A DNA stretch of 64,000 nucleotides from Sphingomicrobium lutaoense. Its GTDB lineage: Bacteria > Pseudomonadota > Alphaproteobacteria > Sphingomonadales > Sphingomonadaceae. Below are positions 10,316-58,690 of this stretch, piece by piece. The notes beneath the pieces were generated by a model. That model searched no databases and was not told the DNA's origin. It saw only the letters and a list, made by a program, of their open reading frames with translations. Location of the stretch: NCBI RefSeq assembly GCF_014195685.1, contig NZ_JACICF010000001.1, forward strand, positions 1,373,317-1,437,316, in the 5' to 3' direction. Each line of letters begins with the position of its first letter. Position 1 is the first letter of the stretch. The position numbers and the translations under genes were made by a program.

Positions 10316-10507
10316 ATGGAACAGGAAAGCGCCTTGGTGGCAGGGAAGGGTTCTGAGAACGCTGAAAGCGTCATCCGCATCGAAGCTGAACCCTCTGATG
10401 CCTGTATCGCGGCCGCATTGCACCGCGCCTTCGCGGAGCCCGAAGTGGACGACCGCGAAGACCCTTTCGCGCACCTTCTCGAAAAGCTGAACGCCTGTAG
10501 CGGTTAA
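10316..10507 (+). CDS. Small NepR-like protein (possible second anti-sigma factor)
   Basis: This 63-residue protein is acidic. Its C-terminal 29-residue helix pair, starting IAAALHRAF and ending HLLEKLN, aligns without gaps to the NepR core at 12303-12521 (VGRALRSVY to DLLGKLS). Eight positions are identical, and Y/F, V/I and several D/E positions are conservative. NepR binds EcfG and phospho-PhyR through these two helices. The gene is convergent with ecfG and shares the bases TTAA for both stop codons. The start is uncertain: ATG 10316 has no clear ribosome binding site, and a GTG about 20 bases on, after AGGAAAG, is possible. A second NepR is an inference from this alignment and location. 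Confidence 0.6.
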   Translation: MEQESALVAGKGSENAESVIRIEAEPSDACIAAALHRAFAEPEVDDREDPFAHLLEKLNACSG

Positions 10508-11184
10508 TTCTCGCTGTCGCCCGACAGCTGGTCGACCTCGTTCATGATCGATTCGAGCGCCGAACGCTCGGGATCGCCGCCCTGCTGGCGGCGCGAAGGC
10601 AGGTCGTTGGATTCGAGCAGATTGTCGAGCGCGACGCGGCCACGCGCGACGCGGCTCTTGATCGTCCCCACCGCACAACCGCAGATCTGCGCCGCTTCTT
10701 CATAGGCAAAGCCACCCGCCCCGACGAGAATGAGCGCTTCGCGCTGCGGCTGGGGAAGCTGGAGCAATGCGCGCTGCATATCGCCCAGGTCCACATGCTT
10801 GTCCTGCGCGGCCGGTGCGGCGAGGATCTTGGCGGCGGTGACATCGTCCCACTCGCCCTTGAAGCGCGCCCGGCGCATCTGGCTGAGAAAGAGATTGCGA
10901 AGGATGATGAAGGTCCATGCGCGCATATTGGTGCCGGCCTGAAAGCGCTTGCGCGCCGCCCATGCCTTCAGAAGCGTTTCCTGGACCAGGTCGTCGGCGG
11001 TATCGCGATTGCCCGAAAGGCTGCGGCCGAACGCACGCAGGTGCGGAATGACCTGCGCCAACTGCTCCTTGAATTCGTCATCCGGCAAGGGAACCGGATC
11101 CGGGCGACTTTCCGCCGGCGGCTCTGCAGGATTTTTCTTGGCCAAGGAAACCCCCAAACTGTGGCGTCGCGACATGGGCGCCAT
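10504..11184 (-). CDS. ecfG: General stress response ECF sigma factor EcfG
   Basis: EcfG directs RNA polymerase to GGAAC/CGTT promoters under general stress and is held inactive by NepR. The protein has up to 226 residues. Sigma2 spans about 45-110 (DDLVQETLLKAWAARKRF). Sigma4 spans about 130-185 with the helix-turn-helix AAQICGCAVGTIKSRVARGR. The start is uncertain: ATG 11184, ATG 11175 or a TTG about 15 codons in that has a GGGGG site. It lies 79 bases downstream of phyR on the same strand, and I see no EcfG-type promoter directly before it, so it may depend on phyR transcription. Confidence 0.93.
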   Translation of the reverse strand: MAPMSRRHSLGVSLAKKNPAEPPAESRPDPVPLPDDEFKEQLAQVIPHLRAFGRSLSGNRDTADDLVQETLLKAWAARKRFQAGTNMRAWTFIILRNLFLSQMRRARFKGEWDDVTAAKILAAPAAQDKHVDLGDMQRALLQLPQPQREALILVGAGGFAYEEAAQICGCAVGTIKSRVARGRVALDNLLESNDLPSRRQQGGDPERSALESIMNEVDQLSGDSEN

Positions 11185-11263: not shown

Positions 11264-12055
11264 TTAGGCGGGAACGGTGGCCGCGTCGAAGAAGAGCGCC
11301 TGGCTGATCGCCGCTTTCACGGTTGCCCTCTGGAAAGGCTTGGTGATCAGGAAGGTCGGCTCGGGACGCGAACCCGTCAGGAGACGTTCGGGGAAGGCGG
11401 TGATGAAGATCACCGGCACCTTGAAGTCCTTGAGGATGTCCTTGACCGCATCGATGCCCGAACTGTCGTCGGCGAGCTGGATGTCGGCCAGAACGAGGCT
11501 CGGCCGGTCGGCCTTGGCCTGCGCCACCGCTTCGTCGCGAGTCACCGCAACGCCCGTGACATTATGCCCCAGGTCGCGGACGATCGTCTCGATATCCATC
11601 GCGATGATCGGCTCGTCCTCGATAATGAGGACATCGGCATGGGTTTGGCGCTCGATTTCCTTGGTCGCTTCGGACACCAGCTTTTCGACATCCTCGGCGG
11701 GCACGTCGATCAGATAGGCCGTGTCCTCGTTGGAGAAGCCTTCGAGGCTGGTGAGGAGAAGCGCCTGGCGCGACAGCGGGGTGATCCGCGAAAGGCGCGC
11801 CTGCGCGATGCTTTCGGCATCGTCGCCGCCGGGCTCGCCGCTATCTTCGAGATGCGCGGTCGACCAGATGGCGTGGAACGTCCGGTAGAGACCGAGCCGG
11901 GGATCGACGTCGGAAGGAAAATCCTCGGGGCTGGCGATAATCGTTTCCAGCGTGCTGCGAACGAAATTGTCGCCATGCTGCTGGCTGCCGGTCAATGCGC
12001 GCGCATAACGACGCAGGAAAGGCAGGTGGGGGGCGAGCTTATCACCAAGCGACAT
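11264..12055 (-). CDS. phyR: General stress response regulator PhyR
   Basis: PhyR is the anti-anti-sigma factor of the system. When phosphorylated, its sigma-like domain sequesters NepR and frees EcfG. The 263 residues comprise an ECF-sigma-like domain (about 1-130) and a receiver domain (about 140-263). The receiver has acidic residues Glu146/Asp147, the phosphorylation site Asp191 in LVLADIQL, Thr219 and Lys239 in TKPF. The ATG at 12055 has a strong GAGGAG site, so I rejected the 42-codon upstream extension. It is divergent from nepR, as in other alphaproteobacteria. Confidence 0.97.
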   Translation of the reverse strand: MSLGDKLAPHLPFLRRYARALTGSQQHGDNFVRSTLETIIASPEDFPSDVDPRLGLYRTFHAIWSTAHLEDSGEPGGDDAESIAQARLSRITPLSRQALLLTSLEGFSNEDTAYLIDVPAEDVEKLVSEATKEIERQTHADVLIIEDEPIIAMDIETIVRDLGHNVTGVAVTRDEAVAQAKADRPSLVLADIQLADDSSGIDAVKDILKDFKVPVIFITAFPERLLTGSRPEPTFLITKPFQRATVKAAISQALFFDAATVPA

Positions 12056-12174: not shown

Positions 12175-12199
12175 GGAACAAAGCAGGCGGACTTTGGTT
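12175..12199 (+). promoter_or_regulatory. EcfG-dependent promoter of nepR-phyP
   Basis: GGAAC (12175-12179), a 16-base spacer and GGTT (12196-12199) match the EcfG consensus GGAAC-N16/17-CGTT with one substitution. It lies in the phyR-nepR intergenic region and points to nepR, leaving a leader of about 95 bases. This would give the negative autoregulation known for nepR. Confidence 0.75.
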
Positions 12200-12302
12200 T
12201 CACCGCCTGAAGCCTTTGCGTTGACCTTGCTGTCGCAATGGTTTTAGTGACACGCGATTTTGCGCGCCCGCCACAGGGTTCGCGTTCGTAATGGAGCGGT
12301 TT

Positions 12303-12521
12303 ATGGCGCGCGAGTACCCGCGCGAAGGGGAAGATGGGTTGAGTGGCAAGAAAAGTGATGAGGCTCGGCGTGCCACTTCTTCCGACGGGAAAAAGGGGAC
12401 TTCGAAAAAGGCTGCACAAAGTCCGGACCCGGTGGGCCGGGCTTTGCGTTCGGTCTATGATGATACCCTTCGCGAAGAAATTCCCGATGAGTTCAAGGAC
12501 CTTCTCGGCAAGCTCAGCTAG
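12303..12521 (+). CDS. nepR: Anti-sigma factor NepR
   Basis: NepR binds and inhibits EcfG until phospho-PhyR removes it. The 72-residue protein has a basic, disordered N-terminus and the family core near the C-terminus (DPVGRALRSVYDD, then IPDEFKDLLGKLS). The ATG at 12303 has GGAG six bases upstream. An earlier ATG at 12291 and a later TTG in a GGGGAAGATGGG context are alternatives. phyP starts 15 bases after its stop, so the two are cotranscribed. ecfG, often paired with nepR in other genera, is not in this operon. Confidence 0.93.
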   Translation: MAREYPREGEDGLSGKKSDEARRATSSDGKKGTSKKAAQSPDPVGRALRSVYDDTLREEIPDEFKDLLGKLS

Positions 12522-12536
12522 GACGGGCGTCCTTCG

Positions 12537-14075
12537 ATGACTTCGCGCCTTGCAGCAAGCGCGGCGGCCCTTTCGACGCCGGTCAAACTGCTGCTCTACC
12601 TGACGATTGCGCTCGCGCCGATCGGGGCGCTGCTGACATGGTCCGCGGTCAGCGAGGTGCGCCAGACCCAGCGCGCAATCCTCGGCCAGGCCGATGGCAA
12701 GATGGTCAGCGCGGCCCGCGCCGTCGATGCCCTCATCGCGCGCAACGCCCTGGCGCTTCGCGTCGCGGCCAACGGCGCCTTTGCCGCCAACACCTCCGAC
12801 CCCTGCACCGCGGCGGCCAAATCGCTCGAAATCACCCCCGCGCTCAGCCAGCGTTTCATCCTCACTTCCGCCGACGGCCGGCAATTGTGCAACGACAGCG
12901 AAATCGGCGAAGTGCGCCGCGGTGAGGATGTACCCGCAGGCGGAATCGCGGTCTGGCTCGCCGAAGATGGTGACGGCGTCGTCACCCGCGTCGGCGTTCC
13001 CGGCGGCAGCGCCACCAGCCTCGTACCCATCGACCAGCTGCGCGACACGGTCGAAGCCGCCGCGCCGGGCATCGACATGATGACACTCGCGGGACGCAAC
13101 GGCTCGCTCACCCTCATCGGCGACGGGGCGATCATCTCGGGCGAACAGCGCACCGGCAGCAGCGACATCGCAAGCGGCCGACTGAAGGCGCATATGGCAG
13201 TCGATGTCGCCGACCTTACCGTGTCGGACCGGCTGCTCATCTTCCTTCCGGTCCTGATGTTCGCCATCGCCCTGCTCCTGAGCTGGCTCCTGATGGACCG
13301 CCTTCTCATCCGGCCCCTGCGCAAATTGCGCCGCGCGGTCGCCAATTACGATCCCGACGAACATCGCTTCGACCTGCCCGCCCGTCTCGGTCCCGCGACC
13401 GAGATCCGCGATCTCGGCGATGCCTTCGTCCACACCGTCGGCCGCATCGAACAGTCCGAGCAGGTCACTGCCAGCGCACTCGAAGGCCAGCGCAAGCTTG
13501 TGCGCGAGGTCCATCACCGGGTGAAGAACAATCTCCAGGTCGTGGCCTCTTTGCTGAACATCCATTCGCGGGGCGCCGAAGGCGGCGAAGCACAGGCCGC
13601 CTACGCGGGCATCGGCCGCCGAGTCGAGGCGCTCGCGGTTGTCCACCGCAACCATTTTGCCGAAGTCGAGGAAAGCCGCGGAATCCAGATGCGCCCCCTC
13701 GTCACCGAACTGGCGTCGAGCCTGCGGTCGAGCGCTCCCCCGGGCAGCGCCAGCTCGGCCTTCGATCTCGAACTCGACGCGGTATCGACCACGCAGGACG
13801 TGGCCGTCGCGGCGGCCTTCCTCATTACCGAGGTGGTCGAATATATCATCAACAAGAACCAGCCGACCCCGATCGAGATCAGCTTGCGCAAGGTGACCGA
13901 GCTTACCGCCCGCCTCACCATCGCCAGCGAGGCGCTGGTCGACGATGCCGATGACGACACACAGCGGCTGCAATTCGATCGCATCGTCGCGGGGTTGGCG
14001 CGGCAGCTGCGTTCGCCCCTGGACAAGCGGCTCGGCAGCTATGCCGTGGACCTCCCGATTTTCCCCGAAAATTAG
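12537..14075 (+). CDS. phyP: PhyP-type membrane sensor histidine kinase homologue (degenerate ATPase domain)
   Basis: PhyP of Sphingomonas acts at the phyR locus and appears to keep PhyR unphosphorylated. The 512 residues show a transmembrane helix at about 18-38, a periplasmic sensor region, a second helix at about 232-253 and a HAMP-like linker. A HisKA_2 phosphoacceptor segment follows (EVHHRVKNNLQVVASLLN, His326/His327). The C-terminal part should be an HATPase domain but lacks recognisable N, G1 and G2 boxes such as DxGxG. This matches the published description of PhyP as lacking an obvious ATPase domain. It is coupled to nepR. Confidence 0.9.
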   Translation: MTSRLAASAAALSTPVKLLLYLTIALAPIGALLTWSAVSEVRQTQRAILGQADGKMVSAARAVDALIARNALALRVAANGAFAANTSDPCTAAAKSLEITPALSQRFILTSADGRQLCNDSEIGEVRRGEDVPAGGIAVWLAEDGDGVVTRVGVPGGSATSLVPIDQLRDTVEAAAPGIDMMTLAGRNGSLTLIGDGAIISGEQRTGSSDIASGRLKAHMAVDVADLTVSDRLLIFLPVLMFAIALLLSWLLMDRLLIRPLRKLRRAVANYDPDEHRFDLPARLGPATEIRDLGDAFVHTVGRIEQSEQVTASALEGQRKLVREVHHRVKNNLQVVASLLNIHSRGAEGGEAQAAYAGIGRRVEALAVVHRNHFAEVEESRGIQMRPLVTELASSLRSSAPPGSASSAFDLELDAVSTTQDVAVAAAFLITEVVEYIINKNQPTPIEISLRKVTELTARLTIASEALVDDADDDTQRLQFDRIVAGLARQLRSPLDKRLGSYAVDLPIFPEN

Positions 14076-14124: not shown

Positions 14125-14150
14125 GGAACCGTCCCCGAAAAATGGGCGTT
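14125..14150 (+). promoter_or_regulatory. Perfect EcfG-type promoter after phyP
   Basis: GGAAC (14125-14129), a 17-base spacer and CGTT (14147-14150) match the EcfG consensus exactly. It lies 50 bases after the phyP stop and points away from phyP into a region with no plus-strand protein gene, so the expected product is an untranslated RNA starting near 14157. Confidence 0.8.
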
Positions 14151-14156
14151 TAATCA

Positions 14157-14260
14157 CACGGATAGTGACCTTTTGCCCCCCCGCTCTCGCTATCCAACTA
14201 CATGGGCCCGGAATTGCCAACCCTCCCCCCCCCCGGTGGCGATTTCGGGCCCACTTTTTT
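14157..14260 (+). ncRNA. Putative EcfG-controlled small RNA with C-rich loop
   Basis: A perfect EcfG promoter (14125-14150) and a strong intrinsic terminator (14203-14260) delimit an RNA of about 104 bases. The 5' part has a single-stranded-looking run of seven C (14175-14181). The terminator stem is capped by a C-rich loop (C-U followed by ten C, 14223-14234). C-rich or CCUCC loops are typical of alphaproteobacterial small RNAs that pair with ribosome binding sites. GsrN, the general-stress sRNA of Caulobacter, has a similar size, sigma control and C-rich target loop. The size, control and loop are inferred from sequence; homology to GsrN is not shown. Confidence 0.65.
14203..14260 (+). terminator. 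Intrinsic terminator of the putative small RNA
   Basis: A 16-bp stem (14203-14218 with 14238-14253, two G-U pairs) extends by ACC/GGT inside the loop and is followed by C and six T (14255-14260). On the minus strand no T run follows, so it serves plus-strand transcription. Confidence 0.8.
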
Positions 14261-14289
14261 GCCCGAAATCCCGAGAGAAATCCTTCCAG

Positions 14290-15060
14290 CTAAGAGAGTG
14301 CTTCGTCCTGCGAGGCGGCCTCGGCTTCGCGACGCGGCCGCGTCAGGCGGATGGCAAGGATCGCGCCCTCGTAGAGCGCATAGAGCGGTAGCGCGAGCAT
14401 CACCTGGCTCACCGCGTCCGGCGGGGTCAGGATCGCGCCGAGAAGGAATGCGGCGACCAGCGCATAACGCCGCCCCCGCACCAGCTGCTCGCGCGTGACC
14501 AGACCTGCCCGCTCGAGAACGAGAATGAGGATCGGCAGTAGGAAAGCGACCCCGAAGCCGAACAGGAAGCGCGTCACGAAGGACAGGTAATTGCCCACGC
14601 CCGGCAGCGCCTCGCGCTCGACCCCGCCGATATTGCCCTCGAAGCCGAGGAGGAAATGCAGCGCCCAGGGCATCGCAATGAAATAGGCAAAGGCTGCGCC
14701 GCCCGCGAAAAAGAAGGGCGTGAGCAAGAGAAAGGGCAGGAATGCCTTCTTCTCGCGCGCATAGAGGCCCGGCGCGACAAAGCGCCACAATTGGGTCGCC
14801 AGCACCGGGAAGGTGATCATCAGCGACGCGAAGAAAGCGACCTTCATCTCCACGAAAAAGGCTTCGAACAGGTCGATGAAGACGAGCCGCCCCTGCCCTG
14901 CCTCGAGCAGGGGCTGCACCAGCATCGCGAAGATCGGCTTGGCGAAATAGAGACAGGCGAAAAAGGTCACGAACAGCGTCGCCACCACCAGCAGCAGCCT
15001 TTTTCGCAACTCGATCAGATGGTCGAGTAGCGGCGCCTTGGTATTATCGAGATCTTTCAC
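14290..15060 (-). CDS. tatC: Sec-independent protein translocase TatC
   Basis: TatC binds twin-arginine signal peptides in the inner membrane. The 256 residues include the conserved N-terminal LLDHLIELRKRLL and six predicted membrane helices. The start overlaps the tatB stop as ATGA. It is the last gene of the argS-SPOR-nagZ-scpA-scpB-tatABC group, and its stop lies 30 bases from the end of the small RNA on the opposite strand. Confidence 0.97.
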   Translation of the reverse strand: MKDLDNTKAPLLDHLIELRKRLLLVVATLFVTFFACLYFAKPIFAMLVQPLLEAGQGRLVFIDLFEAFFVEMKVAFFASLMITFPVLATQLWRFVAPGLYAREKKAFLPFLLLTPFFFAGGAAFAYFIAMPWALHFLLGFEGNIGGVEREALPGVGNYLSFVTRFLFGFGVAFLLPILILVLERAGLVTREQLVRGRRYALVAAFLLGAILTPPDAVSQVMLALPLYALYEGAILAIRLTRPRREAEAASQDEALS

Positions 15061-58635: not shown

Positions 58636-58690
58636 GGCATCTCTCCTTCGATGCCATGAACGGAAGGCGCCCCCGCGATGTTCCGGATGG

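Follow-up and report, generated by a model that had tools for sequence, protein, structure and literature searches.

A predicted EcfG-type small RNA with C-rich loops at the general stress locus of Sphingomicrobium lutaoense, and its conservation in related genomes

The DNA analysed here, a 64,000-nucleotide stretch of the Sphingomicrobium lutaoense genome (the window), carries a general stress locus that includes: an EcfG-type sigma factor gene (10504-11184, minus strand; Pfam Sigma70_r2 and Sigma70_r4_2, the name EcfG being taken from the locus); the gene of the PhyR response regulator (11264-12055, minus strand; Pfam PhyR_sigma2, PhyR_sigma-like and Response_reg); the gene of the NepR anti-sigma factor (12291-12521, plus strand; Pfam NepR), whose start may be a TTG at 12339; and, at the phyP position, a gene for a HisKA_2/HWE histidine kinase (12537-14075, plus strand; Pfam), which we take to be phyP, the name also used in an earlier note on this DNA. 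An EcfG-like sequence motif, GGAAC-N16-GGTT, lies upstream of nepR (12175-12199, plus strand). The putative small RNA (sRNA) gene is situated inside this ecfG-phyR-nepR-phyP locus, between the stop of the kinase gene (14075) and the stop (14290) of the convergent tatC gene (14290-15060, minus strand; Pfam TatC). It begins with an EcfG-type promoter, GGAAC-N17-CGTT (14125-14150, plus strand), composed of GGAAC (14125-14129), a 17-base spacer and CGTT (14147-14150), and the predicted transcript comprises about 104 bases (14157-14260, plus strand), the start being placed from the promoter and the end from the T run. Direct reading of the sequence confirmed both the promoter and the length given in the earlier note.

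The predicted RNA folds into two hairpins. Hairpin 1 (14160-14195, plus strand), which was absent from the earlier description, pairs GGATAGTGA (14160-14168) with TCGCTATCC (14187-14195) around an 18-base loop (14169-14186), and inside this loop lies the C7 run that had been noticed near the 5' end. The C-rich core of loop 1 (14176-14185, plus strand) consists of C7 (14176-14182) followed by GCU. The terminator with its T6 tail (14203-14260, plus strand) is formed by a hairpin (14203-14253) and six T (14255-14260), and a second C-rich loop, C-U-C10 (14223-14234, plus strand), is read within the hairpin; the loop, the tail and the hairpin were as previously described, and the stem, formerly given as 16 bp, was corrected to 19 pairs with one bulged A. 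The fold of a 107-base RNA had an energy of -45.9 kcal/mol (z -6.2), and none of 200 shuffled sequences folded as well. The genome of S. lutaoense itself contains a single match to the RNA.

The promoter motif by itself is not significant, because GGAAC-N16/17-CGTT occurs twice in the 64-kb window compared to 0.69 expected, and 13 of 100 shuffles contained two or more. The other exact match (58659-58684, minus strand) may be due to chance. The earlier note had called chance unlikely for the combination of promoter, terminator and locus, and the unit of promoter and RNA as a whole is conserved in the genus. It is conservation, rather than the motif alone, that is decisive for a predicted RNA gene at this position. 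When 71 genomes of the genus (the own genome included) were searched at the DNA level, the RNA was detected in 69, including all 53 of the complete, clean ones, and many matches start and stop about where the predicted transcript does. The 69 genus loci that were read represent 68 genomes, two of the loci being from G052; the match of G060 and a second, partial one of G056 are at the ends of contigs and fall outside this set. GGAAC-N16 or N17-CGTT was present in 69/69 loci, always with a distance of 9 bases between CGTT and GGATAG. In an alignment of 68 genus members (A1; L069 left out), the loop-1 bases were nearly invariant, and two-sided changes affected 9 of the 28 base pairs, all of them in the terminator hairpin, a level reached by none of 500 shuffles.

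A covariance model built from A1 (R1) was searched against the family, a comparison that the earlier note had proposed, and gave matches in 99 of 298 family genomes. One or a few loci were taken per genus, and 43 loci outside the genus were accepted as true members. GGAAC-N16/17-NGTT was found just upstream of the RNA in 41 of these 43 loci, compared to 1 of 645 control windows, and 29 of the 41 carry the exact GGAAC-N16-CGTT. TatC was encoded near the RNA in 34 of the 43 loci, a PhyP-like kinase in 31, both in 24 and at least one of them in 41; the two loci lacking these neighbours are a contig end (L124) and a second copy within one genome (L129).

Covariation was analysed in a second alignment (A3), composed of 52 diverse rows. 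Antisense R1 matches, L128 and L131-L135 were left out of both A3 and the promoter count. All 28 base pairs showed two-sided changes (9/9 in hairpin 1, 19/19 in the terminator) and 95.8 per cent of the cells pair, figures to be read with the lean of A3 towards the model structure, since the alignment was fitted to the model. The covariation value was 0.452 compared to 0.175 in shuffled alignments (0/500 as good) and to 0.093 or less in slid versions. Nine bases of loop 1 (14177-14185, CCCCCCGCU) were identical in the 52 rows, gapped rows not being counted against identity; no other part of the RNA is as well conserved as this core, and the 5' portion of the same loop varies. The stem columns had a mean identity of 0.82 to 0.84 for hairpin 1, compared to 0.60 to 0.61 for the terminator. 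A loop core kept amid stems that change in concert is the pattern expected of a loop that acts by base pairing or binding. Promoter, stem and loop, whose loss in relatives the earlier note had set against its own proposal, are all three conserved in the genus and in the family.

A further model (R2) found RNAs of the window type (type A) in 116 of the 298 family genomes at E <= 1e-4. The second copy mentioned above (L129:2048-2142) keeps ACCTTTTGCCCCCCCGCTCTC and an EcfG-type promoter and has a different stem; no match to the stress or tat genes of the window was found around it. Another possible second copy, of diverged sequence, is L128, where both a C-rich loop and a GGAAC promoter occur; second R2 matches were also observed in G284 and G328. 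The exact promoter-plus-loop pattern occurred in at least 119 stretches in a scan of named records; judged by title, the 80 matches listed come from sphingomonads, namely Sphingomonas, Sphingomicrobium, Sphingosinicella, Stakelama, Parasphingopyxis, Rhizorhabdus, Sphingobium and Glacieibacterium, and from metagenome bins labelled Sphingomonadaceae, Sphingomonadales or Alphaproteobacteria. Promoter and loop are both present in the record of Sphingomicrobium astaxanthinifaciens JCM 18551, a laboratory strain with type A. Among 289 genomes of the class, R2 gave four with matches at E <= 0.01, two of them family members, and no convincing match outside the family. The two others (L282, L283) had no GGAAC promoter at the right place by eye; the stretch L282:1480-1600 is RNA-like, with C-rich loops on two hairpins. 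A search of the order gave one weak match outside the family (G439, E 0.0015). Misses in these searches are no proof of absence, because searches over 40 genomes use stricter filters.

Family genomes negative for R1 were sampled for other RNAs (20 genomes from 20 genera, 18 of them with PhyR; one of the 20, G073, matched R2 at E 2.3e-6). A different candidate RNA of about 95 bases, type B, was detected near phyR in 15 of the 18 (L306-L320): in 13 it adjoins phyR and is divergent from it, and in two (L307, L315) it lies about 1 kb off. The order of its elements is promoter, 5' hairpin, terminator. The promoter, GGAAC-N16-CATT, was present in 15/15 loci and in 8/8 further ones (L322-L329), and in the 5' loop stands CCCCCC(C)TCCCGTCC, in some cases with a C run that is a little shorter. 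The four of the 15 that were folded had z values of -5.1 to -6.6, and no Rfam family was reached in the 10 loci searched, seven of which carry type B. Types A and B share the GGAAC promoter, the 5' hairpin with a C-rich loop and the terminator, but differ in sequence, in the stem, in the -10 element (CATT in type B, CGTT in type A) and in the terminator loop, which is not C-rich in type B.

A model of type B (R3) matched 117 of the 298 family genomes at E <= 2e-9. With the cut-offs used for comparison (type A, E <= 1e-4, which keeps 116 of the 125 genomes matched at E <= 0.01; type B, E <= 2e-9, which keeps 117 of 125), no genome had a strong match to both types and 233/298 had one or the other; the Fisher value of this exclusion is not a count of independent events, because the split follows descent in part. 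Strong B matches were present in six of the nine genomes with weaker A matches, and strong A matches in four of the eight with weaker B matches; weaker matches in genomes with a strong match of the other type were taken as chance. The genome of the window has type A and no match to type B. PhyR was detected in 266 of the 298 genomes (E <= 1e-25), and A or B in 230 of the 266 genomes with phyR compared to 3 of the 32 without it, the three being fragmented drafts; this count, uncorrected for phylogeny, ties the presence of the predicted RNA to the presence of the regulator. Neither RNA was found in 36/266 phyR genomes, and in 10 of these 36 the surroundings of phyR (L304, L321, L353-L361) contained nothing convincing. 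One of the ten, G094, has a possible diverged relative near tatC (L285:3562-3702, R2 E 0.00024), which contains two C-rich stretches and is preceded by a GGAAC motif. It is conceivable, and we propose it tentatively, that an RNA arm is a near-universal part of the sphingomonad stress response, the role being taken either by A (in most cases between phyP and tatC) or by B (near phyR), the two replacing each other between lineages; if this were true, a C-loop RNA would be a required part of the circuit, swapped or rebuilt at least once.

The comparisons described above show, at the level of predicted features, a promoter and an RNA of about 104 bases that has two hairpins, ends in an intrinsic terminator and exposes two C-rich loops; several explanations other than an sRNA acting in trans were weighed. 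The hairpin might merely end transcription of the nepR-phyP operon, or separate phyP from tatC, with a fortuitous motif upstream: the site lies between convergent genes, a T run stands at its end, and in the window the motif taken alone does not exceed chance. Several observations make this very unlikely: the promoter comes after the phyP stop and is kept in place in 69/69 loci of the genus and 41/43 outside it; hairpin 1 and its loop, useless for termination, contain the most conserved bases; and the second copy in L129 has no stress or tat gene matches around it. There is likewise little probability in an RNA that works mainly on the neighbouring tatC as a cis-antisense RNA. The tatC frame, followed from a protein match, does run on opposite the sRNA in 50 of 68 genus loci (the commonest end being 55 bases inside the hairpin end), and within the genus this frame may be a further constraint on the terminator hairpin. 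However, tatC ends 37 bases short of the hairpin in the window, there was no overlap in any of 34 loci of other genera (gaps of 18 to 873 bases), so the tatC frame does not explain conservation across the family, and the invariant part of the RNA is loop 1. The read-on of tatC ends in tails such as GPETPPGGGRVGGSGPI (e.g. L002, L004-L015), perhaps an overprinted C-terminus (compare window positions 14253-14290).

A small protein gene is the explanation for which an ATG at 14202, opening a frame that in the window extends over 98 codons, would speak; a start codon was found at this position in 60 of 68 genus loci (56 ATG, 4 GTG), which qualifies the earlier statement that the transcript has no credible ORF. 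The frames behind this start, however, vary in length between 11 and 227 codons and are unlike in sequence; their reading frames also differ, because the length of the C run changes by single bases, and the start codon falls within the terminator stem, where compensatory base pairs occur. The statement thus stands with that caveat, the RNA gene is apparently non-coding, and a coding function is hardly credible. The C-rich loops might also bind a protein or sequester other G-rich RNA instead of pairing with mRNA leaders, which would agree with a loop core invariant across genera and with perfect complements that are not enriched in the genome. To our knowledge, there is no bacterial poly-C binding protein that would suit such loops. 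The precedent points to mRNA, GsrN being described as pairing with it (PMC5869019), and we hold protein binding or sequestration to be rather unlikely.

An EcfG-driven trans-acting sRNA of the general stress response, acting through its C-rich loops, is the reading that we favour and consider fairly probable, its pairing mechanism included. Stress would free EcfG from NepR; EcfG would, judging from the promoter, transcribe the RNA under stress; the C-rich loops would base-pair with G-rich segments in mRNA 5' leaders or close to ribosome-binding sites; and pairing would alter translation or stability of the target mRNAs, as GsrN does in Caulobacter. Pairing of the loops with G-rich mRNA is proposed because the loop is invariant and because of the analogy with GsrN. 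The stress sRNA claimed by the earlier note is hence sustained as a structured, conserved and apparently non-coding gene with an EcfG-type promoter at a stress locus, its link to the sigma factor being a prediction.

The evidence for pairing with G-rich sites, also part of that claim, was mixed: genome-wide enrichment and duplex energy did not support it, and the G runs of two leaders, nepR and dnaJ, were above controls. The complement of the loop-1 core, AGCGGGGGG, is not enriched in the own genome, since 23 sites were found compared to 31 for the reversed control pattern. One such site falls right at the start codon of an ORF of 901 codons, which we take, from its protein sequence, to encode an outer-membrane usher; about 0.2 sites of this kind are expected by chance (rough arithmetic), and it was given no weight as target evidence. 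In 20 of 21 genus nepR leaders read by eye (the window, 12325-12341, and 20 relatives, L362-L381; the exception is L372), a TTG start follows a run of 4 to 6 G, and nepR probably starts at the TTG at 12339. The duplex energy of nepR was no outlier against 439 start regions, ranking 113th with loop 1 and 50th with loop 2. In the own genome, a strong double G tract, G5-C-G5, lies in the leader of dnaJ (L396:15763-15790), a gene named from its protein sequence. This long tract was not kept in 10 relatives (L402-L411), which have shorter G runs only; a run of at least 4 G was present within 33 bases before the match in 9 of the 10, the run of L404 lying far out. Runs of at least 4 G occurred in control leaders of 30 bases in 6/20 phyR, 3/27 tatC and 2/27 tatB genes, and in 52 of 439 start regions of the own genome, the nepR, dnaJ and control counts differing in window and in start-finding method. 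Another G-rich site of the own genome, a run of 13 G, stands a short way upstream of the first start of an ORF of 248 codons (L399:7660-7706). The nepR and dnaJ leaders are possible targets of the C loops and are regarded as leads, not as results, because a conserved G-rich ribosome-binding site needs no sRNA. If nepR were repressed by the RNA, a positive loop on EcfG would be closed. More generally, the two RNA families could explain a post-transcriptional action of the sphingomonad stress response, and together they occur in 230/266 phyR genomes of the 298-genome sample; a covariance model is at hand for further work, as are a promoter and a loop that can be mutated.

EcfG-dependent sRNAs have been characterised mainly through GsrN of Caulobacter, and the sphingomonads have a relative, Erythrobacter litoralis, that bears on the comparison. 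An Rfam scan of the window reached no family at its gathering score; the RNA gave a weak full-length match, on the right strand, to the alphaproteobacterial sRNA ar14 (RF02344), below the gathering cut-off (13.8 compared to 58.8 bits, E 1.3). No report of a type A or type B RNA was found in the literature covered, which consisted mostly of the beginnings of abstracts, with subscription journals largely outside, and in the main text examined from sphingomonad stress-response papers the one hit for terms denoting small or non-coding RNA was a reference title on the RNA SuhB. According to the report on GsrN (PMC5869019), this RNA is transcribed by SigT, its C-rich 5' loop pairs with the G-rich leader of katG, raising KatG, and it is cleaved to a stable 5' isoform of 51-54 bases and stabilised by Hfq. 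The same report states that BLASTn hits of gsrN were restricted to the Caulobacteraceae, that the outgroup Erythrobacter litoralis was without an apparent gsrN-like gene, and that GsrN homologues are usually near the general stress locus, though not in C. crescentus itself (PMC5869019). The GsrN-like candidates of the Rhizobiaceae were predicted there from position, promoter and expression (PMC5869019); compared by description, they share with the window RNA the position, the EcfG site and the exposed C-rich loop.

Set beside the description of GsrN, the window RNA has in common with it: an EcfG/SigT-type promoter directly upstream, present here as a sequence feature; a length of about 100 bases with an intrinsic terminator (about 104 from promoter to T run); a C-rich loop in the 5' half, which in A3 is highly conserved and predicted to be exposed; and closeness to the ecfG-nepR-phyR locus. 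The second C-rich loop, in the terminator, is a point in which the window RNA differs from GsrN. The parallel with GsrN drawn in the earlier note is thus retained as a likeness of kind, made by description and not by sequence kinship: the window RNA resembles GsrN in promoter, size, locus and exposed C loop.
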